Shown: piece after piece, positions 1 to 39,701 of the stretch
How positions within the stretch are numbered: the stretch's first letter is position 1
How the letters are laid out: every line of letters begins with the position of its first letter
Assembly: GCA_016791045.1 (NCBI GenBank)
Contig: JAEUNO010000040.1
Coordinates: 1-50,222 of the forward strand
Source: Methyloversatilis sp.
Lineage (GTDB): Bacteria; Pseudomonadota; Gammaproteobacteria; Burkholderiales; Rhodocyclaceae
Length of the DNA stretch: 50,222 nucleotides
Direction: 5' to 3'
The notes under the pieces: generated by a model
What the model was told of the DNA's origin: nothing
Seen by the model: only the letters and a program-made list of their open reading frames with translations
Databases searched by the model: none
Position numbers and translations under genes: made by a program

Positions 1-192
1 GAAGGAGGCGGGGGTGTCGGACTGGGCAATCTCGCGCATGGGCACGCGGATGTCCGGGCGCGAGCCTTCGATGTAGACCTTGCGCGAATTGGGCAGCGGC
101 GCGATGGCCGCCGAGTCGACGTGCGCCTGCGCGGCGAGGAAGGTGTCGCGGGAATCGCGGGCGGCGTGGGACAGCGGGTCTTTGGCGTTCAT
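1..192 (-). CDS. thiC: Phosphomethylpyrimidine synthase ThiC, N-terminal part (cut by window edge)
   Basis: ThiC makes the pyrimidine half of thiamine (HMP-P) from aminoimidazole ribotide by radical SAM chemistry in the cytoplasm. Reading leftwards from the ATG at 192-190, 64 codons are visible, including [20 protein letters not shown] followed by [13 protein letters not shown]. This is the typical N-terminal signature of ThiC. The catalytic core and the iron-sulphur cysteines lie outside the window. An AGGAG ribosome site sits about six bases upstream of the ATG, which fixes the start. The gene is divergent from the porin/alcohol dehydrogenase operon. It may matter to the neighbouring acetoin pathway because AcoAB needs thiamine diphosphate. 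Identity is very likely; completeness cannot be judged. Confidence 0.93.
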
Positions 193-416
193 GGAAGCTC
201 CTGTGGGATGCGGCTGCGGTGATGTCACCCCAGGCGCACGGTGTGCGTCCGTACGGTTCAGCAATTTCCAGTCCACGAAGCGGGCGCATGACGCGGCGGC
301 GGCGCGCGGACACGCGGCGCGGCCGTCATTCAATTTTGGCGCCGGAACGGCGTCTGCCGGCGCACCGGGCGAGTTGTCATCCGCCTGCGCAACGGTCATC
401 GGGCGCATGCCATGGC
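193..416. other. Leader/intergenic region between thiC and the divergent sigma54 regulatory region
   Basis: No credible gene is seen. A TPP riboswitch is often found ahead of thiC, but on the minus strand I find no CTGAGA followed by the GAACCTGAT-type core. Apart from the thiC ribosome site next to position 192, I can assign nothing here. Confidence 0.4.
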
Positions 417-506
417 GTCTCGCGAGACACCTGCGACGCCCTTCGTGCGCTCGATACAGATGTCGCAATTTCTCGGGCTTTGCCAAGACATCTGTCGCAT
501 GTCTCT
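417..506. promoter_or_regulatory. Putative upstream activator sites for the AcoR-like regulator (porin/ADH promoter)
   Basis: The stretch holds a perfect 12-base palindrome GTCTCGCGAGAC (417-428), TGCGACG (432-438), TGTCGCA (461-467), a second TGTCGCA (493-499) and TGTCTCT (500-506). The last pair lies inside the inverted repeat AGACAT/ATGTCT (487-505). The same half-sites recur ahead of the aco operon at 6416-6479. They lie about 85-170 bases upstream of the start predicted for the sigma54 promoter at 563-578, a normal distance for an enhancer-binding protein. That the regulator encoded at 4246-6297 binds here is inferred. Confidence 0.65.
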
Positions 507-562
507 CCGGGTGATTCTCAGGGTCCGGGAAAAATACCCAGTCAATTCAATGCCGTGAGCGT

Positions 563-578
563 TGGCATGGATTCTGCC
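563..578 (+). promoter_or_regulatory. Sigma54 (-24/-12) promoter of the porin-PQQ dehydrogenase-cytochrome operon
   Basis: TGGCATG-GATT-CTGCC matches the sigma54 consensus TGGCACG-N4-TTGCA with exact spacing between the -24 GG and -12 GC elements. Predicted transcription start is near 588, giving a leader of about 70 bases before the porin ATG at 661. Activator-type repeats lie upstream at 417-506. Confidence 0.75.
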
Positions 579-660
579 CTTGTGTTCCCCGACGAAGGCG
601 TCGCCGAAAGCGGTGCCGCGTCGAAGCTCGAAGTTTCGACATCAACAATCGGAGGGGAGT

Positions 661-1842
661 ATGAAAAAGAAGATCTCTGGCGCGTCGGCGCAGGGCGCAC
701 GCAACGCATGCACGCTGGCCGCCGCAGTCGCTGCGGCAATGATGATGGTTCCCGGTGCGGCGCAGGCCGACATCGTGATCGGTGAAGCGGCCGGTACCAA
801 GCTGTCGATGTTCGGCATCATCGACGTTGGCTTGCTGTACAACAGCAAGGCCAACGCCAGCGGCGACAGCAGGACTTCGATGGAAACCAGCGGCCTGCGT
901 CAGACCGTGATCGGTTTCAAGGGCGAACGCGAACTGCAGCCGAATCTCACTGCGTTCTTCAATCTCGAATCGCACTTCGACACCAACGACGGTTTCCTCC
1001 ACGGCACCGGCGATGCGCCGCGCGGCGGTACGAACAACACGCCGCTGTTCCGGCGTCAGGCGAATCTGGGTGTGCGTGGTGACTGGGGTAGCGTGACCGT
1101 CGGCCGTCAGTATGGCCCGGCACTGCTGGCGCACATCGGTACCGAACCGCGTGCCTTCAAGGAGCAGTTCTCCAACCTGTATGCCTGGGCCTACGGTCAG
1201 TTGTTCACGACCGCCAATGCGGCAGGCGGCGATCGCAACACCAACAACGATGTGGGTATTTTCTTCAGCAACGCTGTGCAGTACAGACATACTGTCGGCC
1301 CGGTGAATTTCGGCGTGCTGTACGCGTTCGGCGGTCAGCCGGGTTCGGCCAAGGACAACAGCTCGTATGCCCTGGGCGCAACCTACAACGGCCCGATCAC
1401 GCTGTCCGCGTCCTACCAGGCGATGAATGACGAACAGACCGGCAAGAGCAACATCGAGCACACGTCGCTCGGTTTCGCGATTCCGTTCGGCGACTTCATC
1501 TGGAAGAACAACTGGATGAATGCCAAGAACGACGCGCGCACCGGCGCCGAACTGGCCGACATCAACGGCTTCGGCACGGGCCTGGACTGGAAGTGGCACG
1601 CCAAGAATTCGGCCACGGTGGCGTACTACATCAACAAGGACGACAGGAACAAGACCGACGAAACGAAGTTTCTGGTCATCAGCAATGACTACCAGTGGCG
1701 GCCGGACACCACGCTGTACGTGCAGTTCGCGTACGCCGATGCCGATGCGGGCGCCACGCTGCGCACCAGCATCGTGGCGGCGGGCGTGACCGCCGGCGAG
1801 AAGAGCACGCTGCTCAACGTCGGCCTGAATTTCATGTTCTGA
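661..1842 (+). CDS. Gram-negative general porin
   Basis: The product is a 393-residue outer-membrane beta-barrel porin, probably trimeric, for diffusion of small solutes. It has an N-terminal signal peptide (basic start, then an Ala-rich core ending near AAQA at about residue 36). The mature part starts KLSMFGIIDVGLLY and has alternating amphipathic strands with GFKGERELQPNLTAFFNLE and LGVRGDWGSVTVGRQYGP, typical of beta-proteobacterial porins. It ends in Phe (LNFMF), the recognition signal for barrel assembly. GGAGGGGAG directly upstream supports the ATG at 661. It is the first gene after the sigma54 promoter and precedes a PQQ alcohol dehydrogenase, so it plausibly admits the alcohol substrate, PQQ or metal to the periplasm. 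Substrate specificity cannot be read from the sequence. Confidence 0.92.
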   Translation: MKKKISGASAQGARNACTLAAAVAAAMMMVPGAAQADIVIGEAAGTKLSMFGIIDVGLLYNSKANASGDSRTSMETSGLRQTVIGFKGERELQPNLTAFFNLESHFDTNDGFLHGTGDAPRGGTNNTPLFRRQANLGVRGDWGSVTVGRQYGPALLAHIGTEPRAFKEQFSNLYAWAYGQLFTTANAAGGDRNTNNDVGIFFSNAVQYRHTVGPVNFGVLYAFGGQPGSAKDNSSYALGATYNGPITLSASYQAMNDEQTGKSNIEHTSLGFAIPFGDFIWKNNWMNAKNDARTGAELADINGFGTGLDWKWHAKNSATVAYYINKDDRNKTDETKFLVISNDYQWRPDTTLYVQFAYADADAGATLRTSIVAAGVTAGEKSTLLNVGLNFMF

Positions 1843-1861
1843 AGCAACGCGACTGTCTGAA

Positions 1862-1883
1862 CACCCGGGGCTGAACCCGGGTG
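1862..1883 (+). promoter_or_regulatory. Intercistronic hairpin between porin and PQQ dehydrogenase
   Basis: CACCCGGG (1862-1869) and CCCGGGTG (1876-1883) pair perfectly around the loop GCTGAA. No T-run follows, so it is more likely an mRNA-stabilising or partial termination element that keeps porin expression above that of the enzyme than a full terminator. Confidence 0.5.
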
Positions 1884-1912
1884 ATTGAACCCAAGTGAAT
1901 GGAGATTGATAG

Positions 1913-3595
1913 ATGACCGCCTCACGCAAGATGTTCCGCCTGTCGGCTGCCCTTCTGGCAGGCTCGGCGCTGTCCTTCCTGACCGCGGCGCCTGCCATGG
2001 CGCAGGGCAAGGCAGGCTTTGAAGACCCGAACAACTGGCCCGAGTATCACCGCACCAGCAACGCCTGGCGCTTCAGCCCGCTGAACCAGGTCACGCGCGA
2101 AAACGTGAAGAAGCTGAAGGTGGCCTGGGTGCACCAGCCGGGTAACATCACGCACGGCCTGCAGGCGACGCCGATCGTGATCGACGGCGTGATGTACTCG
2201 ATCTCGGCCAACAACAATGTGTGGGCGATCGACGCCGCCACCGGCAAGACGCTGTGGAACTACGCGCCGAAGCTCGACAAGATCGTCGACCAGGTGTTCT
2301 ACGGTGCAGCCAGCCGCGGCGTGACCGTGGGCCGCGGCAAGGTGTTTCTGGGGACGCTGGACGGTCGCTTCATCGCGCTCGACCAGAAGACCGGCAAGGA
2401 ACTGTGGTCGACCCAGCTCACCGCGCCGAAGACGCAGTACGGCGCGTTGTTCTCGGCGCCGCCGCAACTGGCCGGCAACGTGCTGTTCGGTGGCACCACC
2501 GGCGGCGACCAGCCGATCGCGGGCAAGATCTACGCGGTGAATGCCGACACCGGCAAGCCGGCGTGGACCTTTGACGTCATCAAGAACGATCCGAAGAGCT
2601 GGCCGGGCGACAGCGGCAAGGTCGGCGGCGGCAGCGCCTGGATGCCGGGCACCTACGACGCGAAGACCGACACCATCTACATCGGCACGTCGAACGCAGC
2701 GCCGGATTACTACAACTACGACCGCAAGGGCGACAACCTCTATACGGCTTCGCTGCTCGCGATCGAAGGCAAGACCGGCAAGCTGAAGTGGCACCGTCAG
2801 GAAGTCCCGAACGACTCGTGGGACTACGACTCGGCGTACGAAGCGCTGGTCGTGCAGAAGGACGGCAAGGACGTCATCGTCCATCTGAACAAGGGCGGCT
2901 TCGTGTTCGTGATGGACAAGAAGGACGGCGCGCTCGAAAACGTGTGGCAATTCTCCGAGAACGTGAACTGGGTCAAGGGCATCGACCCGAAGACCGGTGC
3001 GCTGATCGATCCGATCTACCCGGAAGTCGACAAGGTCAAGACCTTCTGTCCGAACCTGCTGGGTGCGCGCAGCTGGAATCACGGCGCCTACAACCCGGGC
3101 ACCGGCCTGTGGTACTCGCACGCGATGGAAGTCTGCAACGAAGTGGTCGCCGGCAAGGACGATCCGGACAACCTGAAGGCGGTGTCGGCGCTGTCGCTGG
3201 GCATCGAGTCGATCAAGCTGGTGGCGCCGCCCAACAGCAAGCCGCATGGCCGTCTGGATGCACGTGATCCGCTGACCGGCAAGGTCAAATGGTCGATCAA
3301 GTACGACATGCCCCCGCTGTCGTCGGTGCTGACCACGGCCGGCGGGCTGGTGTTCACCGGCGACCTGGAAGGCAAGATCTTCGGCTACGACGCGGACACC
3401 GGCAAGGAACTGTGGTCCTTCAATTCGGGCTCAGGCCTGCGTGGCGGACCGGTCAGCTACTCGGTGAAGGGCAAGCAGTACATCGTGTTCCCGACCGGTC
3501 TGGGCTCGCATGCTCCGGGCTTCCTCGCAGGTGCATTCCCGCAGATCAAGGATCTGCCGGGCGGCGCTGCGCTCATCGCTTTCACGTTGGAGTAG
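1913..3595 (+). CDS. PQQ-dependent alcohol dehydrogenase (quinoprotein), atypical, with extra-Asp metal motif
   Basis: The product is a 560-residue periplasmic quinoprotein of the methanol/ethanol dehydrogenase family, which oxidises alcohols and passes electrons to a c-type cytochrome. The signal peptide ends near APAMAQ (about residue 31). Repeated DxxTGKxxW blades form the eight-bladed propeller. Asn261 (GTSNAAP), Asp304 (SWDYD) and Lys327 (NKGGF) match metal/PQQ and catalytic positions. Asp306, two residues after catalytic Asp304, is the residue associated with lanthanide use in XoxF/PedH. Oddities: where relatives have adjacent cysteines stacking on PQQ, this protein has Phe129-Tyr130 before GAASRG; and Asp199 appears to replace the usual metal-binding Glu. 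The start at 1913 has GGAG eight bases upstream. It is co-transcribed with the porin and the cytochrome at 3782. Substrate (ethanol, butanediol or other) is not determinable; the aco context suggests a C2-C4 alcohol. Confidence 0.88.
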   Translation: MTASRKMFRLSAALLAGSALSFLTAAPAMAQGKAGFEDPNNWPEYHRTSNAWRFSPLNQVTRENVKKLKVAWVHQPGNITHGLQATPIVIDGVMYSISANNNVWAIDAATGKTLWNYAPKLDKIVDQVFYGAASRGVTVGRGKVFLGTLDGRFIALDQKTGKELWSTQLTAPKTQYGALFSAPPQLAGNVLFGGTTGGDQPIAGKIYAVNADTGKPAWTFDVIKNDPKSWPGDSGKVGGGSAWMPGTYDAKTDTIYIGTSNAAPDYYNYDRKGDNLYTASLLAIEGKTGKLKWHRQEVPNDSWDYDSAYEALVVQKDGKDVIVHLNKGGFVFVMDKKDGALENVWQFSENVNWVKGIDPKTGALIDPIYPEVDKVKTFCPNLLGARSWNHGAYNPGTGLWYSHAMEVCNEVVAGKDDPDNLKAVSALSLGIESIKLVAPPNSKPHGRLDARDPLTGKVKWSIKYDMPPLSSVLTTAGGLVFTGDLEGKIFGYDADTGKELWSFNSGSGLRGGPVSYSVKGKQYIVFPTGLGSHAPGFLAGAFPQIKDLPGGAALIAFTLE

Positions 3596-3607
3596 CAACG
3601 CTGGAAC

Positions 3608-3633
3608 CCCCGGCGCGTGGCTCCGCGCCGGGG
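3608..3633 (+). promoter_or_regulatory. Strong GC hairpin between PQQ dehydrogenase and cytochrome
   Basis: CCCCGGCGCG (3608-3617) pairs over ten bases with CGCGCCGGGG (3624-3633), loop TGGCTC. It is not directly followed by a T-run; an eight-T run starts only about 40 bases later. It may be a partial terminator or mRNA 3'-end stabiliser that lowers expression of the cytochrome gene. Confidence 0.5.
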
Positions 3634-3781
3634 TGGCATGTCTCCTCATTCGCAGGCGGTCACTCATGTTGCTGCCTGTTTTTTTTCGTTCACACTGTTG
3701 CTGGGGTCTGCTGACATTCAATCTCGTCGTGATGGAATGTCACGAGACCCTGATTCGGAAACCCGACCAGGACTTCGAGCA

Positions 3782-4177
3782 ATGACTCAGGAAACTTCAC
3801 GCACCACCGTCGCAGGCAGACTGACCATCACCGCGCTGGTAATGGCCTTCGCCATGATCTCGGCGGCGCCGTCAACGGCCACAGCGACCGATACCCCCAT
3901 CGTTGCGCCGTCCTTCGATCTGACCGATCCGGCGCGGATCGCCGTCGGCAAGAAGCGCTTCAACAAGACCTGCGCAGGGTACTGCCATGGTTCGGATGGT
4001 GTCGGCGGACGCGCGCCCGATTTCAAGGGACGCACCGATCTGCCTGACGAAGAGGCCTACCGCACGATCTTTCACGGACGTCGCACGTCGGACATCATGC
4101 CGCCCTGGGGCGAGGCGTTCACGCCCGATCAGATCTGGGAACTGGTGGCCTACATCAAGTTTCTCGGCACGCAGTAG
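3782..4177 (+). CDS. Small periplasmic c-type cytochrome with a CX3CH haem motif
   Basis: The product is a 131-residue mono-haem cytochrome c, likely the electron acceptor of the PQQ dehydrogenase encoded just upstream. An N-terminal signal peptide ends near residue 36 (SAAPSTATA). The haem motif is Cys64-Ala-Gly-Tyr-Cys68-His69, i.e. three residues between the cysteines instead of two. A probable sixth ligand is Met106 in DIMPPWG, and the C-terminal helix reads ELVAYIKFLG. The ATG at 3782 has AGGA nine bases upstream and begins a normal signal peptide; longer in-frame starts would put extra sequence ahead of it. Class I fold is inferred. Whether the CX3CH site is matured by the standard Ccm system is unknown. 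Confidence 0.88.
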   Translation: MTQETSRTTVAGRLTITALVMAFAMISAAPSTATATDTPIVAPSFDLTDPARIAVGKKRFNKTCAGYCHGSDGVGGRAPDFKGRTDLPDEEAYRTIFHGRRTSDIMPPWGEAFTPDQIWELVAYIKFLGTQ

Positions 4178-4201
4178 GGCGTGGCCGGAAGGGCTGCCGT
4201 G

Positions 4202-4235
4202 TCCGTCCCGCAGCGTGAGGTTGCTGCGGGACGGA
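4202..4235. terminator. Hairpin between convergent cytochrome and regulator genes
   Basis: TCCGTCCCGCAGC (4202-4214) pairs perfectly over 13 bases with GCTGCGGGACGGA (4223-4235), loop GTGAGGTT. It lies between the stop codons of two convergent genes and could act in both directions, although no long T-run is present on either side. Confidence 0.6.
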
Positions 4236-4245
4236 TGCCAACGGG

Positions 4246-6297
4246 TCAGCCCTGCTGGGCGGTCCGTTCGGCGCTGTCGAGGTAGTTGGGCGCCACGATG
4301 CGCAGACGCGCCATCTTGCGGTAGAAGGTGGCGCGCGACATGCCGAGCTGGCGCGCCGTTTCGGTCACCTTCCAGTGATTGCGGCGCAGCGCCTCGAGCA
4401 TCTTCTGGCGCAGCTGCAGACACATTTCACTCAATGGCTCGCCGCTGTCGTCTTCGCAGGCGTCATACGCAATGGCGGCGACCACCGGCTGCTGCTCCGG
4501 CGGTGGCGGCAGGGCGACACGCGTCGGCTTGTTGCCGGCGCGCAGTTCGTGCGGGAAGTGCTCGAGCCTCACCTGCGGGCCTTCCGCTATGGCGCAGGCG
4601 TAGCGCACCGCGTGCCGCAGCTGGCGGATGTTGCCGGGCCAGCTGTAGGCCAGCAGCACGTCCATCGTCTGTGGCTCGATCGAGATGCCGGTGCGTTCCA
4701 TCGCGGTGCTTTCCTCCAGCATCACCTGTTCGACCAGCGCGCGCTTGTCCTCGCGCTCGCGCAGCGGCGGCAGCGTGAACGAGGCGCCGTTGAGGCGATA
4801 GAACAGGTCTTCGCGGAAGCGTCCTTCGCGCACCAGCTCCGGCAGGTCCTGGTGGGTCGCGCAGATCACGTGCAGGCGCACCGGCGTGGGCTGTTCTGCG
4901 CCGAGCGGTACCACCTCGCCTTCGGCCAGCACGCGCAATAGGCGGCTCTGCAGGGACAGCGGCATGTCGCCGATTTCGTCGAGGAAGAGGGTGCCGCCGT
5001 CGGACTGCAGGATCTTGCCTTTCGAGCCCTTGTTGCGCGCGCCGGTGAAGGCGCCGTCGCGGTAGCCGAACAGTTCGCTCTCGATCAGGCTTTCCGGAAT
5101 CGCGGCGCAGTTGAGCGCGACGAAAGGTTGTTTGGCACGGTCGCTGAAATCGTGGATGCCGCGTGCGAACGCCTCCTTGCCGGTACCGGTCTCGCCCAGC
5201 AGCATGACCGGAATGTCGCGGTTGGCCACGCGCACTGCGCACCCTACGTTGGCCTTCACGCGCGGGTCGCCCAGCGCCAGGTGACGGAAGCCGCGCGGTG
5301 CCGTCAGGTCTTCCGCCTCGGCGACCGGCTTGGCGGCGATCTGCGGCAATGTGCGGGCGTGCGGGGCGCGCAGCACGGCGAACAGCCGTTGTCCGGTGGC
5401 GAACATGCGCAGCGGGAACGGTGCGCCCGGGCTGGCGTGCGCGGCCGCCATGATGCCGTTGGCGGTGCATTCGAACAGGTCGTGCAGGTATTCGGCGCGG
5501 CGCCCGTTATGGTTGATCAGTTCGTGGCGCGCACGCCGGTTGCCGCCGACGATGCGACCGCTGTCGTCGAACGCGATCAGGTAGTCGGTCTCGACCGGCA
5601 GGAATTCGGCGATCGTGCCGAGCTGCAGTATCCAGTGGTTGCGCAGGCTGTAGTGGGCGTAGGCGTCCTCGATCAGGCGCGCCTTGTCGATCACCATGCG
5701 GTAGATCAGCAGCTGGCTTTCGCGCTGTTCGGGCGAGTAAAGGGCCGACGCATCGAGCACGGCGATCGGTTCGTCTTCAAGGCCGACGATGGGCACCGAA
5801 CTGCAGGTGAAGCTGATGTTGTGGGCGCGGAAGTGTTCGCCGCGATGGACCAGCGTGGGTTGGCAGTCGATCAGGCTGGTGCCGACGCCACAGGTGCCTT
5901 CGTGTTCTTCCGCCCAGCAGGTGCCGTTGCGGAAGCCTTCGTCTTTCAGTTCGCGTTCGAGGTGCGGCACGGTGCGGAAATCGACCGTCACACCCTGGGC
6001 GTCGGTCAGCAGCACGCAGTAGTCGGCCAGCAGCACCTGCTGGTGCAGGCGCTCGACGCCTTCGCGCGCAATGCGCATGAATGTTTCCAGCCGGTCGCGA
6101 TGCTCGCGCAGTTCGTAGGCCGTGACGACCTTCGGTGTCGTCGCCCGCCCGGGGTCGATCGAGTGCTTGTTCAGCGACCGGTGCCACGAGCGCTTGAGCC
6201 GGTCGTGTTCCGAATGCAGCGGCGCTGACCGGCTGGGTGCTTCGATGGCCTTGAGTACCCGGCCGACGTGATCCGAGATCGTGTGTCCGCGGTCCAT
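4246..6297 (-). CDS. acoR: Sigma54-dependent transcriptional activator, AcoR family
   Basis: The product is a 683-residue enhancer-binding protein. The N-terminal region includes a GAF-type sensor domain (about 80-215, with FTCSSVPIVG). Then comes an AAA+ domain with Walker A GETGTGKE (368-375), the sigma54-contact loop GAFTGA (415-420) and Walker B GGTLFLDEIGD. A Fis-type helix-turn-helix lies at the C-terminus (VTETARQLGMSRATFYRKM). This is the AcoR/acetoin-activator layout. AGGAGGAG precedes the ATG at 6297. It lies between two operons that both have sigma54 promoters and shared repeat motifs, so it probably controls both. The effector is not visible; in Ralstonia and Bacillus AcoR responds to acetoin or related compounds. 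The gene symbol is by family and context. Confidence 0.88.
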   Translation of the reverse strand: MDRGHTISDHVGRVLKAIEAPSRSAPLHSEHDRLKRSWHRSLNKHSIDPGRATTPKVVTAYELREHRDRLETFMRIAREGVERLHQQVLLADYCVLLTDAQGVTVDFRTVPHLERELKDEGFRNGTCWAEEHEGTCGVGTSLIDCQPTLVHRGEHFRAHNISFTCSSVPIVGLEDEPIAVLDASALYSPEQRESQLLIYRMVIDKARLIEDAYAHYSLRNHWILQLGTIAEFLPVETDYLIAFDDSGRIVGGNRRARHELINHNGRRAEYLHDLFECTANGIMAAAHASPGAPFPLRMFATGQRLFAVLRAPHARTLPQIAAKPVAEAEDLTAPRGFRHLALGDPRVKANVGCAVRVANRDIPVMLLGETGTGKEAFARGIHDFSDRAKQPFVALNCAAIPESLIESELFGYRDGAFTGARNKGSKGKILQSDGGTLFLDEIGDMPLSLQSRLLRVLAEGEVVPLGAEQPTPVRLHVICATHQDLPELVREGRFREDLFYRLNGASFTLPPLREREDKRALVEQVMLEESTAMERTGISIEPQTMDVLLAYSWPGNIRQLRHAVRYACAIAEGPQVRLEHFPHELRAGNKPTRVALPPPPEQQPVVAAIAYDACEDDSGEPLSEMCLQLRQKMLEALRRNHWKVTETARQLGMSRATFYRKMARLRIVAPNYLDSAERTAQQG

Positions 6298-6415
6298 GTC
6301 CTTCTCCTCCTGTTCATCTATATATCGAAACGCGGCGTGCGATGTTGTCTGCCGCAGCGTTTCACTTTTGTGACTTGAGGGTAAGCCCTGAACCGCCTGA
6401 AATCAACGCGACGAA

Positions 6416-6479
6416 TGTCTCCGAAAAGTGAGACAGGTGTCTCAATGGCTCGCTGTCGCAGTGGGCGCCGATGCGACAG
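6416..6479. promoter_or_regulatory. Putative AcoR upstream activator sites of the aco operon
   Basis: Two inverted-repeat blocks are present. TGTCTCC (6416-6422) faces TGAGACA (6429-6435), which also pairs with TGTCTCA (6438-6444) across two bases. CTGTCGCA (6453-6460) faces TGCGACAG (6472-6479) across 11 bases. The same half-sites occur at 417-506. They lie about 110-185 bases upstream of the predicted sigma54 start. Binding by the regulator encoded at 4246-6297 is inferred. Confidence 0.7.
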
Positions 6480-6532
6480 GTGGGCCGCTGCGCGTTGCGC
6501 CGATGCGCACGACGACCCGAAGAGCGCTTAAG

Positions 6533-6545
6533 AATCATCCGCTTG
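6533..6545 (+). promoter_or_regulatory. Possible IHF site between activator sites and sigma54 promoter
   Basis: AATCATCCGCTTG differs at one position from the IHF consensus WATCAANNNNTTR. It lies between the activator repeats and the -24/-12 promoter, where IHF bending is common in sigma54 systems. It is a short degenerate match, so only moderate weight. Confidence 0.4.
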
Positions 6546-6575
6546 ACGGCGCGGGCGAAGCCGTCGGGATGGCGC

Positions 6576-6591
6576 TGGCACGGCCGATGCA
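6576..6591 (+). promoter_or_regulatory. Sigma54 (-24/-12) promoter of the acoXABC operon
   Basis: TGGCACG-GCCG-ATGCA matches the sigma54 consensus nearly perfectly with exact spacing. Predicted transcription start is about 6601. The first possible ATG of acoX (6592) would lie upstream of this start, so the promoter decides the start codon of the next gene. Confidence 0.8.
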
Positions 6592-6627
6592 ATGACACAG
6601 GTAATCAACGCCTGGAGTCGCATCGCC

Positions 6628-7671
6628 GTGCTGTCCGTTCCACCTCGTCCCGCCCTCGTCGGCATCATCGCGAACCCCGCATCCGGCCGGGACATCCGCC
6701 GCCTGACTTCGCGTGCGTCGGTGTTTCCGAACGCCGAGAAGGCCAGCATGATGGTGCGGGCGATCGCCGGACTGGAAGCGGCCGGCGTCCGCGATGTGAT
6801 GATCATGCCGGACTCGGGCGGCATCTGCGGCCCGCTGTTCCGCGCGTTGTCGGTGACCACCGGTTCGCCGGTCACGGTGCAGCCGCGCTTCATCGACATG
6901 CCGGTGACCAGCTCCGCCGACGACACGCTGCGGGCGACCGAGCTGATGTGTCAGGCCGGTGCCGGCGCGATCATCGTGCTCGGCGGCGATGGCACGCATC
7001 GCGCCGTGGCGGCGCGCTGCGGCCAGGTGCCGCTGCTTGCGCTGTCCACCGGCACCAACAACGCCTTCCCCGAAATGCGCGAAGCCACGGTCGCCGGACT
7101 GGCGGCCGGCCTGCTGGCCACCGGTGCCGTGCCGGCGGAGGTCGCCGTGCGGCGCAACAAGCTGCTGCGCGTGCGCTGCGATGACCGCACCGACATCGCG
7201 CTGGTCGATCTGTGCGTCACGCGCCACAACTATGTCGGCTCGCGCGCCGTGTGGGACAGCGCGCTGCTGGAAGAACTGTTCGTCGCTTTCGCCGGGGCGG
7301 ATGCGATCGGCCTGTCGGCGATCGCCGGCCAGCTCGAACCGGTCACCCGCAGCGCGCCGCACGGCCTGCATGTGCGCTGCGCCGACACGACGCTTACGCC
7401 GCAGCAGGTGATTGTGCCGATTGCCCCGGGACTGATCAGTGCGGTCGGCATCCGCGAGTACGGTCGTCTGCTGCCCGGGCAGCCGGTCGTGCTCGCCCCG
7501 CAGAGCGGAACCATTGCGCTCGATGGCGAACGCGAAATCGAATTCGATCCGTCGAACCGCATCAGCGTCGAACTCGACCTGCACGGCCCGCTGACCATCG
7601 ATGTCGCTGCCGTACTCGAGAACGCAGCGCGCCGGCGCGTGCTGCGCCACTACGCAGGGCGCCCGGCATGA
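6628..7671 (+). CDS. acoX: AcoX, ATP-NAD kinase-like protein of the acetoin operon
   Basis: AcoX is a conserved companion of acetoin dehydrogenase genes with a fold related to NAD kinase/diacylglycerol kinase; its exact reaction is not established. The sequence shows VGIIANPASGRDIRRL near the start, the nucleotide-binding GGDGTHR motif and a STGTNNAFPEMREATVAG motif, all typical of AcoX. I chose the GTG at 6628, preceded by GGAG ten bases upstream. The in-frame ATG at 6592 overlaps the -12 element of the sigma54 promoter and would not be on the transcript. This gives 347 residues. It is the first gene of an operon with acoABC, separated from acoA by 142 bases. Confidence 0.87.
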   Translation: MLSVPPRPALVGIIANPASGRDIRRLTSRASVFPNAEKASMMVRAIAGLEAAGVRDVMIMPDSGGICGPLFRALSVTTGSPVTVQPRFIDMPVTSSADDTLRATELMCQAGAGAIIVLGGDGTHRAVAARCGQVPLLALSTGTNNAFPEMREATVAGLAAGLLATGAVPAEVAVRRNKLLRVRCDDRTDIALVDLCVTRHNYVGSRAVWDSALLEELFVAFAGADAIGLSAIAGQLEPVTRSAPHGLHVRCADTTLTPQQVIVPIAPGLISAVGIREYGRLLPGQPVVLAPQSGTIALDGEREIEFDPSNRISVELDLHGPLTIDVAAVLENAARRRVLRHYAGRPA

Positions 7672-7813
7672 GCCGCGTGCGCGCCCTGTCCCGTCTCTCC
7701 CCGGAGGTGCCGGCGCCTGCCGCCAGCGCCTTCGTGCCCGGTTCGTCCGGCCAACCGCCCGCAGCTGCCGGAGATCAGCGGGCTTGTCATTCCATCCACA
7801 AAGAGGAGCACCC

Positions 7814-8788
7814 ATGAGCAGTTCATTGACCAGGGAAGGCCTGCTGCAGGCCTACCGGACCATGCGCACGATCCGGGAATTCGAGGAACGCCTGCACGTC
7901 GATTTCGCCACCGGCGAAATTCCCGGCTTCGTTCATCTGTATGCCGGCGAAGAAGCTTCGGCGACGGGCATCTGCATGCACCTGAACCGCGACGACTACA
8001 TCGCCAGTACCCACCGCGGCCACGGCCACTGCATCGCCAAGGGCGTTGATCCGGTCGGCATGATGGCCGAAATCTGGGGCAAGGCCACCGGCACCTGCAA
8101 GGGCAAGGGCGGCTCGATGCACATCGCCGATCTTGATGTCGGCATGCTGGGTGCCAATGGCATCGTCGGCGGCGGTGGCCCGCTGATCTGCGGCACGGCG
8201 CTGGCTTCCAAGCTGCGCGGCAGCAACAACGTCGGCGTGTGCTTCTTCGGCGATGGCGCGTCCAACCAGGGCACGATTTTCGAGGCCATGAATCTGGCGG
8301 CCGTGTGGAAGCTGCCGGTCATCTTCGTCGGCGAGAACAACGGTTACGCCGAAGCCACTGCGAGCAACTTTTCGGTCGCCTGCGAAAACATCGCCGACCG
8401 TGCTTCAGCCTTCGGCATGCCGGGCGTGATCGCCGACGGCTTCGATTTCTTCGCTGTGCATGAAGCGGCCGGCGAAGCCATCAAGCGTGCCCGCGAAGGC
8501 GGCGGACCGACCCTGCTGGAAGTGAAGCTGTCGCGCTACTACGGCCACTTCGAAGGTGACCAGCAGACCTACCGCGCACCGGGCGAGGTGCAGAAGCTGC
8601 GCGAAACCAAGGACTGCCTGATGCAGTTCGCACGTCGCGTGACGTCGCGCGGCGAATTGACGATGGCCGAACTCGAAGCCATCGATGTCGAAGTGAAGAC
8701 CCTGATCGATGCATCGGTGGTGAAGGCCAAGGCAGATCCGCTGCCCAAGCCGGAAGACCTGATGGCTGACGTCTACGTCTCTTACTGA
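7814..8788 (+). CDS. acoA: Acetoin dehydrogenase E1 alpha subunit (TPP-dependent)
   Basis: AcoA with AcoB forms the thiamine-diphosphate E1 component that cleaves acetoin to acetaldehyde and an acetyl group bound for lipoyl-AcoC. The 324-residue protein has the E1-alpha family features: N-terminal YRTMRTIREFEERL, the HRGHGHCIAKG loop, KGKGGSMHI, and the TPP/Mg motif Gly146-Asp147-Gly148 running to Asn175-Asn176 (GDGASNQ to GENN). AGAGGAG six bases before the ATG at 7814 supports this start over upstream in-frame codons. Pyruvate dehydrogenase E1 alpha is the main alternative. The adjacent acoX, the short hydrolase-type acoC and the AcoR-like regulator favour acetoin. Confidence 0.92.
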   Translation: MSSSLTREGLLQAYRTMRTIREFEERLHVDFATGEIPGFVHLYAGEEASATGICMHLNRDDYIASTHRGHGHCIAKGVDPVGMMAEIWGKATGTCKGKGGSMHIADLDVGMLGANGIVGGGGPLICGTALASKLRGSNNVGVCFFGDGASNQGTIFEAMNLAAVWKLPVIFVGENNGYAEATASNFSVACENIADRASAFGMPGVIADGFDFFAVHEAAGEAIKRAREGGGPTLLEVKLSRYYGHFEGDQQTYRAPGEVQKLRETKDCLMQFARRVTSRGELTMAELEAIDVEVKTLIDASVVKAKADPLPKPEDLMADVYVSY

Positions 8789-8821
8789 ACCCACGCCACA
8801 CGCTGACAGGAGAAATATCAG

Positions 8822-9832
8822 ATGGCACGAAAGATCACATACCAGCAAGCCATCAACGAGGCGCTGGATCAGGAAATGGCGCGTGACCCGAGCGTCATCG
8901 TCATGGGCGAAGACGTGGCAGGCGGTGCCGGTGCACCCGGCGACGAAGATTCGTGGGGCGGTGTGCTCGGTGTGACCAAGGGCTTGTATGCGAAGCACCC
9001 GGGGCGCGTGCTCGACACACCGATTTCCGAATCCGGCTACATCGGTGCCGCGGTCGGCGCAGCCTGCAACGGCATGCGTCCGGTGGCCGAGCTGATGTTC
9101 ATCGACTTCATGGGTGTCTGTTTCGACCAGATATTCAATCAGGCGGCCAAGTTCCGCTACATGTTCGGCGGCAAGGCGAAGACGCCGGTGGTCATCCGCG
9201 CCATGTACGGCGCAGGTTTCCGCGCCGCTGCACAGCACTCGCAGTGCCTGTACAACATCTTCACCCACATCCCCGGGCTGAAGGTGGTGCTGCCGTCGAA
9301 TCCGTATGACGCGAAGGGCCTGCTGATCCAGTCCATCCGCGACAACGACCCGGTGATCTTCCTCGAACACAAGGCCCTCTACACGATGGAAGGCGATGTG
9401 CCGGAAGAGAGCTACATCGTGCCGTTCGGCGAAGCCGCCGTGGTGCAGGAAGGTGACGACGTGACCATCGTGGCCTTCGGCCGCATGGTCAATTACGCCA
9501 AGGATGCGGGTACCAGCCTGCGCAAGAAGGGCGTCCAGTGCGAAATCATCGATCCGCGCACGACCTCGCCGATGGACTTCGACACCATTCTCGAAAGCGT
9601 CGAGCGCACCGGCCGTCTGGTCATCGTCGATGAATCGCACCCGCGCTGCAGCATGGCGTCCGACGTGTCGGGCTTCATCGCGCAGGAAGCGTTCGGCGCC
9701 CTCAAGGCACCGATCCAGATGGTGACCGCACCGCACGTACCCGTGCCCTTCGCAGCGTCGCTCGAAGATCTCTACATTCCCAGTCCGGCGCGCATCGAAG
9801 AAGCCGTGATGCGCGTCAAGGAGTACCGCTGA
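8822..9832 (+). CDS. acoB: Acetoin dehydrogenase E1 beta subunit
   Basis: This is a 336-residue E1-beta subunit that pairs with AcoA and contributes the pyrimidine-binding side of the TPP site. Visible family segments are YQQAINEALDQEM, VIVMGEDVAGGAG, RVLDTPISESGYIGAAVGAA, GLKVVLPSNPYDAKGLL and VIDPRTTSPMD-like sequence (IIDPRTTSPMDFDTI). The ATG at 8822 follows GACAGGAGAAATATCAG with a clear AGGAG. There are 33 bases after acoA, and the stop overlaps the acoC start by one base (TGATG at 9830-9834), so translation is coupled. Length and order match known acoABC sets. Confidence 0.93.
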   Translation: MARKITYQQAINEALDQEMARDPSVIVMGEDVAGGAGAPGDEDSWGGVLGVTKGLYAKHPGRVLDTPISESGYIGAAVGAACNGMRPVAELMFIDFMGVCFDQIFNQAAKFRYMFGGKAKTPVVIRAMYGAGFRAAAQHSQCLYNIFTHIPGLKVVLPSNPYDAKGLLIQSIRDNDPVIFLEHKALYTMEGDVPEESYIVPFGEAAVVQEGDDVTIVAFGRMVNYAKDAGTSLRKKGVQCEIIDPRTTSPMDFDTILESVERTGRLVIVDESHPRCSMASDVSGFIAQEAFGALKAPIQMVTAPHVPVPFAASLEDLYIPSPARIEEAVMRVKEYR

Positions 9833-10941
9833 TGTCCTCGATTCTGACCGTCACCATGCCCAAGTGGGGCTTGTCCATGCAGGAGGGCAAGGTCAACCTG
9901 TGGCTGAAGGAAGTCGGTGACTCGATCGCTCCGGGCGAGGAAATCGTCGAAGTCGAGAGCGAGAAGATTTCCGGCGCCGTCGAGGCGGCCGTCACCGGCG
10001 TGCTGCGCCGGCAGGTCGCCCAGCCGGACGAGGTGCTGCCGGTTGGCGCCCTGCTCGGCGTGATTGCCGACGCCGACGTTTCGGATGATCTGATCGATGA
10101 TCTGATCGCCCGCTTCCAGGCGGAATTCGTGCCGCCGACCGACGACGAGGCCGATGCCGGACCGCAGACGCAGACGGTGCAGGTCAATGGCCGGCAGCTG
10201 CGCTATCTGAAGCGCGGTGACGGCGGCACGCCGCTGCTGCTGATCCACGGCTTCGGTGGCGATCTGAACAACTGGCTGTTCAACCATGAAGCGCTGGCCG
10301 CTTCGCGCGCCGTCTATGCGATCGACCTGCCGGGTCATGGCGCCTCGACCAAGGTCACCGGTGCGGCGTCGCTCGACGATCTGGCCGATGCGGTGAGCGG
10401 GTTCATGGAGGCGGTCGGCATTGCATCTGCCGACCTCGTCGGTCACTCGATGGGCGGCGGCGTGTGTCTGGCGCTGACGCGCCGCGCGCCGCAGAAGGTC
10501 AAGTCGCTGACGCTGATCGCGAGTGCCGCGCTGGGCAGCGACATCAACGGTGCCTACATCGACGGCTTCGTCGCCGGCAACACGCGCAACGCACTCAAGC
10601 CGCTGCTGGCGCAGCTCTTTTCGGACGCCGGTCTGGTCACGCGTCAGCTGATCGACGACATGCTCAAGTACAAGCGGCTCGAAGGAGTGGACGAGGCACT
10701 GGCGACGCTGGCCGGCGGACTGTTCCCCGCTGGCCGTCAGTCGGCGGTGCTGGCTGATGTCGCGGCAGCAAGCGGCAAGCCGGTGCTGGTGATCTGGGGC
10801 GAGAACGACCGGATCATTCCGGTCGCGCACGCTTCGGCCATTCCGTCGGCCAGGGTGGTGGTGCTGCCGGCACAGGGCCACATGGTGCAGATGGAATCGG
10901 CCGGTGAAGTGAACAAGCTGATCGGCGAGTTCACAAGCTGA
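9832..10941 (+). CDS. acoC: Acetoin dehydrogenase E2: lipoyl domain fused to alpha/beta hydrolase
   Basis: AcoC accepts the acetyl group on lipoate and transfers it to CoA. The 369-residue protein has an N-terminal biotinyl/lipoyl domain (1-80) with the lipoylated lysine in ESEKISG (Lys45). A hinge follows, then an alpha/beta-hydrolase domain (about 115-369) with nucleophile Ser206 in GHSMGG, acid Asp326 (GENDRIIP) and His350 (QGHMVQ). This architecture, rather than the normal catalytic E2 domain, is the hallmark of AcoC. The lipoyl lysine needs LipA, encoded next in the operon. No E3 (dihydrolipoamide dehydrogenase) gene is found in the window, so E3 is probably borrowed from elsewhere. Confidence 0.93.
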   Translation: MSSILTVTMPKWGLSMQEGKVNLWLKEVGDSIAPGEEIVEVESEKISGAVEAAVTGVLRRQVAQPDEVLPVGALLGVIADADVSDDLIDDLIARFQAEFVPPTDDEADAGPQTQTVQVNGRQLRYLKRGDGGTPLLLIHGFGGDLNNWLFNHEALAASRAVYAIDLPGHGASTKVTGAASLDDLADAVSGFMEAVGIASADLVGHSMGGGVCLALTRRAPQKVKSLTLIASAALGSDINGAYIDGFVAGNTRNALKPLLAQLFSDAGLVTRQLIDDMLKYKRLEGVDEALATLAGGLFPAGRQSAVLADVAAASGKPVLVIWGENDRIIPVAHASAIPSARVVVLPAQGHMVQMESAGEVNKLIGEFTS

Positions 10942-10950
10942 GTACGAACT

Positions 10951-10972
10951 GAGCACCAACGGAGCACCAACG
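10951..10972 (+). repeat. Two tandem 11-base repeats in the acoC-lipA gap
   Basis: GAGCACCAACG occurs twice head-to-tail (10951-10961 and 10962-10972), followed by a further GAGC. It is a short direct repeat of unknown meaning, possibly replication slippage. Confidence 0.5.
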
Positions 10973-11064
10973 GAGCCCGACCCGGGCCCCGATTGAGCAG
11001 TCAGACCGTCCGCCCCGAACAGGGGATGGACAGGGCGGAGCATCCGTTGCGGGTGTTCCGCCTC

Positions 11065-11084
11065 GCTGCGGCATGTGCCGCAGC
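11065..11084 (+). promoter_or_regulatory. Hairpin just upstream of lipA
   Basis: GCTGCGGCA (11065-11073) and TGCCGCAGC (11076-11084) form a perfect inverted repeat ending 20 bases before the lipA ATG and just ahead of its AAGGA site. It could influence translation or mark a processed mRNA end. No T-run follows, so it is not a classic terminator. Confidence 0.4.
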
Positions 11085-11104
11085 AACCCGATGAAGGACA
11101 AGAA

Positions 11105-12055
11105 ATGAATTCAGCAGTCGTGGGGGAAGGCCTGCGCGGACGCGACAAGCTGGCCCGCATTCCGGTCAAGGTCCGCGAAGACGTGGCGTCGCCGGCGAAA
11201 CCTGCCTGGCTGCGCGGCCGCGATCAGGACACGCCGGCGGTGCGCGCGCTGCAGGGCGTGCTGCGTGACCACGCACTGCATACCGTGTGCGAGGAAGCGG
11301 CCTGCCCGAACATCGGCGAGTGCTTCGGTCGCGGCACCGCAACCTTCATGATCCTCGGTGCCATCTGCACGCGCCGCTGCCCGTTCTGCGATGTGTCGCA
11401 CGGACGGCCGCTGGCGCCGGATGCCGACGAGCCGCAGCGCCTGGCCAGTACGGTGGCGGCGATGAAGCTGCGCTATGTCGTGATCACCTCGGTCGACCGC
11501 GACGACCTGCGCGATGGTGGCGCTGCGCACTTTGCGCAATGCATGGCCGACATCCGCGCGGCGTCGCCCGACATCACGATCGAGGTGCTGACACCGGATT
11601 TCCGCGGCCGCGAGGCGGCCGCACTCGACGCGCTGGCGGTGTCGCCGCCGGACGTGTTCAACCACAACATGGAAACCGTGCCGCGCCTGTACCGCGAGGT
11701 CAGGCCCGGCGCGAACTACGAAGGCTCGCTGAAGCTGATCCGCGATTTCGGCGCGCGCTTCCCCGGCGTGCCGACCAAGACCGGCCTGATGCTCGGTCTC
11801 GGCGAAACGGAAGACGAAGTGATCGAGGTGATGCGCGACCTGCGCGCGCATGGCTGCGACCTGCTGACGCTGGGGCAGTACCTGCGCCCGTCGCCGGCGC
11901 ACCTGCCGGTGATCGAGTACATCACGCCGGCACGCTTCGATGCGTTGCGCGAGAAGGCGCTCGAACTGGGTTTCAGCGAGGTGGCGGCCGGCCCGCTGGT
12001 GCGCTCGTCCTACCGCGCCGATGTGCTGCATCAGGCGCATGCCGATCATGACTGA
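11105..12055 (+). CDS. lipA: Lipoyl synthase, radical SAM
   Basis: LipA inserts two sulphurs into octanoyl chains on lipoyl domains. The 316-residue protein has both iron-sulphur sites: auxiliary cluster Cys62-x4-Cys67-x5-Cys73 ([12 protein letters not shown]) and radical-SAM Cys88-x3-Cys92-x2-Cys95 (CTRRCPFC). The C-terminal RSSYRAD carries the conserved Ser ligand. Length is normal. The ATG at 11105 follows GATGAAGGACAAGAA, giving a good AAGGA spacing. It overlaps thiS by eight bases and lies 163 bases after acoC. A lipA in an aco operon is known from Pelobacter (acoS), so this copy may be dedicated to AcoC. Whether another lipA exists elsewhere cannot be seen. Confidence 0.95.
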
Positions 12056-12266
12056 TCCGCGCCCTTCACTGGTCACCGTCAATGGACAGATCGAGCGGCT
12101 GGACGCCGTGATGTCCGTCGGCAGTCTGCTCGACGGCAAGGCCTTGCGCACCCGCCGCATCGCGGTCGAGCGCAATGGCGAAATCGTGCCGCGCAGCGCG
12201 TTTGACTGCACCTGGCTCAATCACGGCGATAGAGTGGAGATCGTCGTCGCAGTTGGAGGAGGTTGA
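12048..12266 (+). CDS. thiS: Sulfur carrier protein ThiS
   Basis: ThiS carries sulphur as a C-terminal thiocarboxylate for thiazole synthesis by ThiG. The 72-residue product starts [14 protein letters not shown], has the ubiquitin-like pattern with [14 protein letters not shown] and ends in Gly-Gly-Gly, giving the required terminal Gly-Gly. The ATG at 12048 lies within the end of lipA (eight-base overlap), and the stop is one base before the thiG start, so lipA-thiS-thiG are translationally coupled. No thiF, thiO or thiE is seen next to it. Confidence 0.9.
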
Positions 12267-12267
12267 A

Positions 12268-13089
12268 GTGAATCCACCCTTGAGCCCCTGTCTGAGCGAC
12301 TCGCTGGTCATCGGCGGCCAGACATTCGAATCGCGCCTGCTGGTGGGCACCGGCAAGTATCGCGACCTGGCGGAAACCGCACGCGCGCTCGATGCCAGCG
12401 CGGCCGAGATCGTCACCGTGGCGATCCGCCGCGTGCCGCTGACGGCGCGCGACGGCACGCCCGGCCTGCTCGACGCGCTGCCGGTCGGTCGCTACACACT
12501 GCTGCCCAATTCCGCCGGCTGCTACACCGCCGACGATGCCGTCCGCACGCTGCGTCTGGCGCGGGAGCTGCTCGACGGTCACGATCTGGTGAAGCTCGAG
12601 GTGCTGGGCGACTCGAAGACGCTGTTTCCCGACATGCCGGAAACGCTGCGCGCGGCCGAAGTGCTGATCCGCGACGGCTTTCGCGTGATGGTGTACTGCT
12701 CGGACGACCCGATACAGGCGCGCGTGCTCGAGAGCATGGGCTGCGTGGCGGTGATGCCGCTGGCCAGCCTGATCGGCTCGGGCATGGGCATCCTGAATCC
12801 GTGGAACCTGAAGATCATCATTGCCGAAGCCGGCGTGCCGGTCATCGTCGATGCCGGCATCGGCACCGCGTCGGACGCGGCCGTGGCGATGGAACTCGGG
12901 TGTGACGGCGTGCTGATGAATACCGCGATCGCGCATGCGCGTGATCCGGTGCTGATGGCCAGCGCCATGCGCCACGCCGTCGCGGCCGGTCGTCAGGCCT
13001 TTCTGGCTGGGCGGATGGACGCGGTGCCTTATCGCGCCGTGGCGTCGTCGCCGCAGGTCGGACTGATCACCCAGATGCAGGAGATGTAA
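12268..13089 (+). CDS. thiG: Thiazole synthase ThiG
   Basis: ThiG condenses deoxyxylulose 5-phosphate, dehydroglycine and ThiS-bound sulphur to make thiazole phosphate, a TPP precursor. The 273-residue TIM-barrel protein has [10 protein letters not shown], the Schiff-base lysine Lys109 in [45 protein letters not shown], and [20 protein letters not shown] in the phosphate-binding end. The GTG start at 12268 is set by GGAGGAGG five bases upstream. The segment [16 protein letters not shown] departs from the common RRTN-type sequence, so it may be a divergent or second copy. Its place after acoABC-lipA suggests a role in supplying cofactor for the E1 enzyme. Confidence 0.92.
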
Positions 13090-13132
13090 GTACAGCAGGA
13101 AGCACCCACCACAAGAACAGGGAGGAATCCAG

Positions 13133-13873
13133 ATGTCTTCAGCAGGAACACGCAAGGTTGCATTGATCACCGGCGCATCGCGCGGTATCGGGGCCGCAGT
13201 CGCCGGCCGGCTCGCACGCGACGGCTTTCATGTCGTCATCCACTACGGCCGCGGTGCGGACGAGGCGCGCGCGGTGGCCGAAGGCATACGGCAGGCGGGC
13301 GGCAGTGCGTCGGTCGTGCAGGCGGACCTGTCCGCGCGCGACGGCGCGGACCGGCTGCTCGCCGGCCTGGCCGAACAGCAGGTCGATGTGCTGGTGAACA
13401 ACGCCGGCATCGCGCCTTTCGCATCGATCAGCGACATGGATGTCGACAGCTTCGACGAGCTGTCGGCGGTCAACATGCGGTCGGTGTTCTTCGTCACGCA
13501 GAAGGTGTTGACGCGCATGGGCAGCGGCGGGCGCATCATCAACCTGTCGTCCGTGGTGGCGCGCACCGCCTTTCCCGGCATGCCGGCCTATTCGGCAACC
13601 AAGGGCTTCGTCGACGTGCTGACGCTGCACCTCGCGGCTGAACTGGGACCGCGCGGCATCACCGTCAATGCCGTGGCACCGGGTGTCATCGAAACGCGCC
13701 TCACCACCGGTCTGCTCGAAGGCGGTGGCGCCGATGCCGTGCAGTCCATCCAGGCGCTGGCGGGCATCGCCGGTCCGGATCGCGTGGCCGGCATCGTCGC
13801 CTTCCTCGCCGGTCCGGATGGCATCTGGACAACCGGTCAGGTGATCGACGTCAGCGGCGGCACCAAGCTCTGA
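13133..13873 (+). CDS. Short-chain dehydrogenase/reductase, candidate acetoin/diacetyl or butanediol reductase
   Basis: This is a 246-residue classical SDR using NAD(P)H. It shows the TGASRGIG cofactor motif near residue 13, NNAG, catalytic Ser140 (NLSS), Tyr153 and Lys157 (YSATK), and the C-terminal TGQVIDVSGG common to the 3-oxoacyl-ACP reductase (FabG-like) group. It follows thiG by 43 bases with a GGGAGGA ribosome site and ends the operon. From context the substrate may be acetoin, diacetyl or 2,3-butanediol, feeding AcoABC; this is inference, because SDR sequences do not fix the substrate and FabG-like activity is possible. Confidence 0.82.
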   Translation: MSSAGTRKVALITGASRGIGAAVAGRLARDGFHVVIHYGRGADEARAVAEGIRQAGGSASVVQADLSARDGADRLLAGLAEQQVDVLVNNAGIAPFASISDMDVDSFDELSAVNMRSVFFVTQKVLTRMGSGGRIINLSSVVARTAFPGMPAYSATKGFVDVLTLHLAAELGPRGITVNAVAPGVIETRLTTGLLEGGGADAVQSIQALAGIAGPDRVAGIVAFLAGPDGIWTTGQVIDVSGGTKL

Positions 13874-13893
13874 GCGCTGTGGCTGGCACCGGC

Positions 13894-14646: not shown

Positions 14647-14756
14647 GGGCGCCTATCCGGGCAAAAAGACTTATTATCCGGGCCAATGCGCCTCATGGCG
14701 ACGGGAAGACCACGGCGCCCCTCTTGCCCGGAACGGCGCCTCAACGGAGCGTGCTC

Positions 14757-15242
14757 TTGATCGATGTATCGGCTATCGGCTGGAAGGAAGCGGCGCTCGT
14801 AGCGCTGGTCATCCTCGCCACATACATGGGTTATGCACTGATGCGCCTGTCCACCCTGAATGCCCGTCGCGAGCAACCCGCGCCGGAACCGCTTGCCGAC
14901 CCCGATCCGCCGACCATTGTGCCGGCTGCGCCTGCCCTGGGGCCTGACGACATCGAAGCGTTGCTGGACACCCTGCTGGACCGCCGGCTTGCGCCACTGA
15001 TGCAGCAGATGGAAATCCGTCTCGATCAGGCCGAATTGCGCATCGACGAGCTCGGTCGCCGGGTGGAAACGGTCAATCAACTGCCGCCGGTGGCGCCGCA
15101 ATACAGCGAGGCGCTGTCGCTCGCCGCACGCGGGTTGAGTGCGGAAGACATCGCCGACCAATGCGAAATGTCGGTCGGAGAAGCTGAACTGGTGCGGACG
15201 CTGGCCAAGAGCCGCGGCATGGGCGGGGGAGAGGAAACATGA
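14757..15242 (+). CDS. DUF2802-type membrane-anchored protein
   Basis: The product is about 161 residues: one N-terminal transmembrane segment (AALVALVILATYMGYALM), a proline/acid linker, a coiled-coil-like part (LMQQMEIRLDQAELRIDELGRRVETV), and a C-terminal YSEALSLAARGLSAEDIADQCEMSVGEAELV segment resembling a helix-turn-helix, as in DUF2802 proteins. I chose the TTG at 14757 because GGAG lies seven bases before it; a TTG at 14724 is in frame but lacks a ribosome site. Its stop overlaps the next gene by four bases. Function is unknown; the pairing with a SPOR protein suggests an envelope role. Confidence 0.7.
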   Translation: MIDVSAIGWKEAALVALVILATYMGYALMRLSTLNARREQPAPEPLADPDPPTIVPAAPALGPDDIEALLDTLLDRRLAPLMQQMEIRLDQAELRIDELGRRVETVNQLPPVAPQYSEALSLAARGLSAEDIADQCEMSVGEAELVRTLAKSRGMGGGEET

Positions 15243-39677: not shown

Positions 39678-39701
39678 GCGACATGGCGACACGCGTGCCG
39701 C

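Follow-up and report, generated by a model that had tools for sequence, protein, structure and literature searches.

Can a single acetoin-type activator couple periplasmic alcohol oxidation to acetoin cleavage? This question is raised by a stretch of Methyloversatilis sp. DNA (the window; 50,222 bases, contig 13 of a 3.54-Mb assembly) in which forward-strand genes for a porin, a quinoprotein dehydrogenase (denoted PQQDH1), and a cytochrome c are followed by a reverse-strand gene for an AcoR-type regulator and then, again on the forward strand, by acoX-acoA-acoB-acoC, lipA-, thiS-, and thiG-like genes, and a short-chain dehydrogenase gene (Table 1). The initial annotation proposed that this one regulator controls both flanking operons. 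Support for such coupling, so far as it can be read from DNA sequence, comes from synteny, from columns conserved in the putative operators and promoters, from the genes being missing together in one genome of the genus, and from genome-wide motif scans. We consider it likely that one AcoR-type protein switches on both operons, together with a third one, linking periplasmic alcohol or diol oxidation to acetoin cleavage.

The acoC product scores above the acetoin-type E2 cut-off. The same genome carries rpoN (TIGR02395, 447 bits, over the cut-off) and pqqE. Within positions 1-15000, there was no Rfam match at or above the gathering score.

Table 1. Genes and predicted regulatory features of the locus, with positions in the window
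Feature	Position	Strand	Evidence or remarks
Predicted operator (UAS), porin operon	417..506	+	GAGACA 424-429, TGTCGCA 461-467, TGTCGCA 493-499, TGTCTC 500-505
Sigma54 -24/-12 promoter TGGCATGGATTCTGCC, porin-quinoprotein operon	563..578	+	GG-N10-GC; invariant columns 11/16 (12 genomes)
Outer-membrane porin	661..1842	+	Pfam PF13609, 5.8e-40
Quinoprotein dehydrogenase PQQDH1, presumably periplasmic	1913..3595	+	PF01011, 7.1e-81 (passes cut-off)
Cytochrome c, approximate start	3782..4177	+	PF13442, 3.6e-15
AcoR-type sigma54 activator (bEBP), GAFTGA loop, Fis-type HTH	4246..6297	-	PF00158, PF25601, PF02954 (4.8e-09)
Predicted core operator module, acoX	6416..6444	+	TGTCTC-N8-GAGACA-N2-TGTCTCA; invariant 24/29
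Second inverted pair, TGTCGCA/TGCGACA	6454..6479	+	Intact in near relatives L141-L144; invariant 1/26 over 12 genomes
Weak IHF-like site AATCATCCGCTTG	6533..6545	+	One mismatch to WATCARNNNNTTR; 6533-6551 invariant 11/19
Sigma54 -24/-12 promoter TGGCACGGCCGATGCA, acoX operon	6576..6591	+	GG-N10-GC; 6576-6594 invariant 16/19 (12 genomes)
acoX, probable GTG start	6628..7671	+	PF01513; start from similarity of relatives and ATG comparison
acoA, acetoin dehydrogenase E1 alpha	7814..8788	+	PF00676, synteny
acoB, acetoin dehydrogenase E1 beta	8822..9832	+	PF02779/PF02780
acoC, acetoin dehydrogenase E2	9832..10941	+	NF011457, 491 bits, cut-off 307
lipA-like lipoyl synthase, approximate start	11075..12055	+	Named by reading translation; position conserved in relatives
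thiS-like	12063..12266	+	Named by reading; synteny
thiG-like thiazole synthase, approximate start	12268..13089	+	Named by reading; synteny
Short-chain dehydrogenase, last gene of genus-conserved block	13133..13873	+	Named by reading; synteny

Promoters and operator half-sites in the window

Both sigma54 elements conform to TGGCAY...TGC with GG-N10-GC spacing, in agreement with the exact -24/-12 spacing initially described, and a search of both strands of the window, at the score threshold used, yields no other sigma54 site. Sigma54 dependence is known for exaA in Azospirillum. The IHF-like site is present at acoX alone, with none found upstream of the porin gene or of a second quinoprotein operon described below (PQQ2). 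The ATG at 6592 abuts the -12 element of the acoX promoter and, in 3 of the 12 genus genomes, its equivalent runs into a stop codon or another frame; this codon is therefore less likely as the acoX start than GTG 6628. Taken together with the protein similarity of relatives, which begins downstream of ATG 6592, and a GGAG upstream of GTG 6628, this comparison points to a transcript start near 6602 and, probably, to translation from GTG 6628.

Putative operator half-sites were counted with the pattern TGTCKC/GMGACA and compared with 5000 dinucleotide-preserving shuffles. Four are found upstream of the porin gene (424, 461, 493, and 500; shuffle mean 0.58, count reached in 13/5000 shuffles) and five upstream of acoX (6416, 6430, 6438, 6454, and 6473; shuffle mean 0.58, reached in 4/5000). 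Across the whole window, 120-bp intervals with at least four half-sites occur exclusively upstream of the two sigma54 promoters; a third cluster, with three half-sites (39617-39798), lies inside open frames, the longest of 436 codons. The half-sites had been described as inverted pairs upstream of both promoters; the enriched clusters are there, but the porin side does not present a clean series of inverted pairs.

In the alignment of the 12 genus genomes having the regulator, invariant columns concentrate on the putative operators and promoters. On the acoX side, the spacers downstream of the operators are almost devoid of such columns (2/53 and 1/24), the stretch around the IHF-like site excepted. 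Conservation extends beyond the core module, given that 25/86 columns are invariant in the upstream stretch 6330-6415. On the porin side, the half-site at 461-467 is invariant in 7/7 columns and 477-499 in 10/23, compared with 1/56 in the spacer between operator and promoter, 0/82 in 330-411, and 10/62 in 579-640. Among the half-sites originally listed, those in 6416-6444, at 461-467, and in part of 477-499 are thus conserved, but those in 6454-6479 and 412-436 (0/25) are not, although half-sites of other genomes occur near both of the latter.

Distribution of the motif and a second quinoprotein operon

A motif built from the half-sites, as had been suggested, was scanned in this genome and its relatives. 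The composite GMGACANNTGTCKC occurs at a single place in the source genome, at acoX (inside 6416-6444); upstream of the porin gene and PQQ2, the strict composite is absent from this genome and the sites are degenerate. Across the 12 regulator-bearing genus genomes, it was found at 29 places, compared with 8 for the reversed pattern, and 24 of the 29 lie at acoX (12), the porin gene (5), PQQ2 (6), or a lipoprotein gene (1). Because the composite was derived from the acoX and porin sites, only the seven PQQ2 and lipoprotein places are independent. The five places elsewhere (three near a shared 805-codon frame in L228-L230, one each in G006:C24 and G009:C47) were dismissed as background since no sigma54 element at threshold accompanies them, save for a weak one scoring 8.5 near the G009 place. 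A combined genome scan for half-sites and sigma54 elements proved, among the matches listed, too noisy to be a source of new targets.

The PQQ2 operon encodes a second quinoprotein together with substrate-binding-like, cytochrome c, heme-binding-like, and lipoprotein genes (names from reading). It lies outside the window, was detected in 11 of the 12 genomes searched (not in G007), and in several of them is on another contig or far away. Its promoter region in G001, G004, G005, G006, and G010 contains the composite motif, followed after about 135 bp by a sigma54 element; in G000, G003, G008, G011, and G012, it contains TGAGACA and TGAGACG-TT-CGTCTCA with TGGCATGGATGATGC, and the G009 set is similar. 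For G007, the composite motif and a sigma54 element were found at a lipoprotein-gene homologue. The regulon thus seems, from these promoter comparisons, to be larger than the two operons of the window and to include this second-quinoprotein operon. The distance from PQQ2 to the porin gene downstream of it is some 5-7 kb in G012; the source genome has PQQ2 close to one end of contig C28, possibly next to the contig of the window (L257, L221).

For 28 hand-picked promoters, the half-site count was reached by at most 20/2000 shuffles in 23; the five above this level are the acoX/acoA promoters of L150, L155, and L008, the porin promoter of L155, and the lipoprotein promoter of L231. This set, which takes two promoters from L155, left out the near-identical genus loci L141-L144, L146, and L147, the PQQ2 loci L222, L224, L240, L253, L254, and L257, the acoX promoter of L158, loci L152, L153, L156, L159, and L160, and the PQQDH promoters of L008 and L154. 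In L152, L153, L154, and L156, PQQDH has another gene in front of it and its promoter was not located. The genome scan of G055 revealed the composite motif at no place. In G002, the thirteenth genus genome, which jointly lacks orthologues of PQQDH1, the AcoR regulator, and acoX, there are four composite places compared with one for the control, in stretches that were scanned for open frames only.

The shared half-sites and synteny could also reflect history, that is, operators inherited without joint regulation of any physiological weight. The porin-side operators are indeed more diverged than those on the acoX side. However, the half-site and promoter columns form conserved islands in otherwise diverged spacers, and the third operon retains half-sites and a promoter even where it is distant or on another contig, so we regard this explanation as very unlikely.

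The regulator, its paralogues, and gene order

The product of the regulator gene contains Walker A (residue 368), GAFTGA (415), and Walker B (438) motifs and, as indicated by PF02954 and alignment, a C-terminal Fis-type HTH, and the gene adjoins acoXABC. The assignment of an AcoR-type activator with an intact GAFTGA loop between the two operons accordingly stands; no AcoR-specific family model was among the best 25 of 27 NCBIfam matches listed.

The order porin-quinoprotein-cytochrome, AcoR, acoXABC is conserved in 12 of the 13 genus genomes, the source genome included; G006 has the same order except that thiS was not detected. Outside the genus, all five loci with a regulator 61-65% identical (L154, L155, L157, L001 from Zoogloea oleivorans, and L008 from an Azoarcus MAG; the first three come from the genomes G055, G041, and G071) have aco genes on one side and a quinoprotein on the other, at a distance of about 7 kb in L001; acoX was not detected in the L154 and L008 loci. 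PQQDH1 homologues with at least 64% identity were found at 22 loci, and acetoin dehydrogenase E1 homologues are present within the fetched stretch in 20 of the 21 examined with flanks (G028 was excluded because its match is at a contig start). The exception, L160 (G147), combines PQQDH1 with an AcoR-like gene, motif clusters, and numerous TGTCGC half-sites, with no acetoin E1 homologue found in 18 kb. The 20 include G037, G060, and G078, whose E1 genes (44-49%) and regulator (about 42%) are more distantly related and where composite motifs lie between the quinoprotein and E1 genes. The joint arrangement was initially presented as a departure from loci with acoXABC only; a quinoprotein operon has joined, but this is no single oddity, being usual in this bacterial group.

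The classical acoR-aco loci show the same adjacency of regulator and aco genes and have GTCTCA half-sites upstream of the aco operon. They differ in that no quinoprotein match was found in the fetched stretches and in that the half-sites are mostly CGTCTCA/TGAGACG, rather than TGTCKCA as in the window. Promoters with such palindromes occur in Pseudomonas (L005, L006, and L048) and Paraburkholderia (L002 and L004), whereas the classical aco promoters of L015 and L199 contain zero half-sites. An earlier control restricted to TGTCKCA, which detected no clusters in classical acoXABC loci, was rejected as too narrow because of these five promoters. Three of the seven classical promoters (L005, L006, and L048) are at or below 20/2000 shuffles; L002 is at 30/2000 and L004 at 674/2000, its palindrome having fallen outside the 220-base test interval, and the L006 anchor is one base too long between GG and GC. 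The comparison left out L003, which also has aco genes. From the palindromes in the five promoters, YGTCKCA looks like an operator half-site for part of the AcoR family, and we offer it as a candidate. The BmoR-Pbmo system of Thauera butanivorans, in the available text of PMC8899819, is similar in having an alcohol-responsive sigma54 activator and a distant upstream operator, but it drives a butane monooxygenase. A TGTCGCA pair also precedes a distant quinoprotein gene of Pseudomonas pisciculturae (L016, 14689), and a cluster of four sites lies ahead of a regulator with 35% identity in a Comamonadaceae MAG (L019, 8757).

Paralogues of the regulator introduce another possibility, namely, that the local protein drives acoXABC alone and a different sigma54 activator with similar half-sites drives the porin-quinoprotein operon. 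The source genome encodes two AcoR-like paralogues with 40% identity (L190 in G000:C45 and L191 in G000:C17), and that on C45 adjoins another quinoprotein gene. A closer paralogue in G005 (L192, about 49%) also adjoins another quinoprotein and is preceded by a TGTCTCA/TGAGACG pair, so more than one regulator may use the half-site. In the C45 stretch, 120-bp intervals with two half-sites occur at three places, and TGTCGC/GAGACA forms an inverted pair at C45:8070-8086. However, within 19 kb around this paralogue, there are no three half-sites within 120 bp, and none of the pairs has a correctly placed sigma54 element scoring at least 8.5; the sole triple in the C17 stretch (L191, 11855-11930) is at the end of the regulator-like match. 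No promoter arrangement comparable to that of the window was found in the stretches around either paralogue. Given also the joint absence in G002 and the position of the local gene between the two operons, control by another activator appears improbable, and we retain control of both operons by the local regulator as the preferred reading.

The quinoprotein branch and the proposed route

PQQDH1 passes PF01011 and falls below the curated cut-off of TIGR03075, the model for PQQ-dependent alcohol dehydrogenases (435.5 versus 480.05 bits). The adjacent cysteine pair of 1kv9, 1kb0, and PedH is replaced by YGAASRG in the window and is absent from all 24 aligned PQQDH1 sequences, which represent 23 loci, L238 and L239 being one Zoogloea locus. 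All 24 (window included) have Asp in place of a PedH Glu, at what we take to be a metal-binding position. In 23 of the 24, another Asp is found two residues after the presumed catalytic Asp, as in PedH, the lanthanide-type position. Lanthanide dependence has been tied to this residue (PMC5487730, in the part of the article available).

In the accessible portions of the respective sources, Pseudomonas putida requires the PQQ-dependent alcohol dehydrogenases PedE and PedH for (2S,3S)-2,3-butanediol (PMC8427195), and the AcoR iModulon of strain KT2440 comprises acoX, acoABC, and bdhA (PMC10943186). The locus described here resembles this iModulon in its AcoR-type regulator, acoX-acoABC genes, and acetoin cleavage; in P. 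putida, the fifth gene encodes 2,3-butanediol dehydrogenase and, so far as that text describes, no quinoprotein is included, whereas here a porin-quinoprotein-cytochrome operon joins. With PedE and PedH, PQQDH1 would share the use of PQQ and the conversion of (2S,3S)-2,3-butanediol to acetoin (PMC8427195, PMC5487730). Unlike PQQDH1, which lacks the Cys pair and has Asp for the presumed metal Glu, these enzymes are, in the same partial texts, regulated by a lanthanide switch outside the AcoR iModulon. Our best reading is that PQQDH1 would substitute for the butanediol dehydrogenase of the P. putida iModulon. Nothing here points to ethanol as the key substrate; a better guess would be 2,3-butanediol or some other precursor of acetoin.

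Even with the joint regulon accepted, the quinoprotein might mainly serve another alcohol or the removal of acetaldehyde after acetoin cleavage. The sequence of PQQDH1, which belongs to a divergent branch, does not reveal the substrate, and in vitro acetaldehyde is a good substrate of PedE and PedH and 2,3-butanediol a poor one, as given in the available part of PMC5487730. On the other hand, the PQQ enzymes are needed for growth of P. putida on (2S,3S)-2,3-butanediol (PMC8427195), and the butanediol dehydrogenase in its AcoR iModulon (PMC10943186) has the very role that the quinoprotein would fill, in both cases going by the accessible text. A different main substrate therefore seems to us a real possibility, if rather a doubtful one.

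Under the preferred reading, joint activation by the local AcoR-type protein, the regulator would sense acetoin or a related C4 compound, bind YGTCKCA half-sites some 60-160 bp upstream of the -24 elements, and co-activate the putative porin-quinoprotein-cytochrome and acoXABC-lipA-thiSG transcripts. It would also control the second-quinoprotein operon in relatives, with a degenerate form of this control in the source genome. A diol or alcohol, at best guess 2,3-butanediol, would enter via the porin; the PQQ enzyme would then oxidize it in the periplasm and pass the electrons to cytochrome c. After uptake, AcoABC would split the resulting acetoin into acetaldehyde and acetyl-CoA. In this testable joint regulon, an acetoin regulator would have taken over periplasmic quinoproteins and so placed the acetoin-making and acetoin-using steps under one switch. 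More tentatively, and as something possible but short of probable, the three-operon AcoR regulon (two quinoprotein systems plus acoXABC and cofactor genes) might constitute a periplasm-to-cytosol route for 2,3-butanediol in Zoogloea/Azoarcus relatives, by way of an apparently undescribed quinoprotein branch (no Cys pair, Glu-to-Asp replacement, lanthanide-type Asp) dedicated to feeding acetoin dehydrogenase. This divergent branch is flagged here for attention. No joint AcoR-quinoprotein regulon was found, by title and abstract opening, among the papers listed in the literature searched, a body of text with subscription journals mostly outside its coverage.

Cofactors for AcoABC would be supplied by the lipoate and thiamine genes of the same block. 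At the edge of the window, the start of a reverse-strand gene (1-192) adjoins this acetoin block with its thiamine and lipoate genes; its apparent homologue in L231 (9169-11100) resembles thiC by eye.
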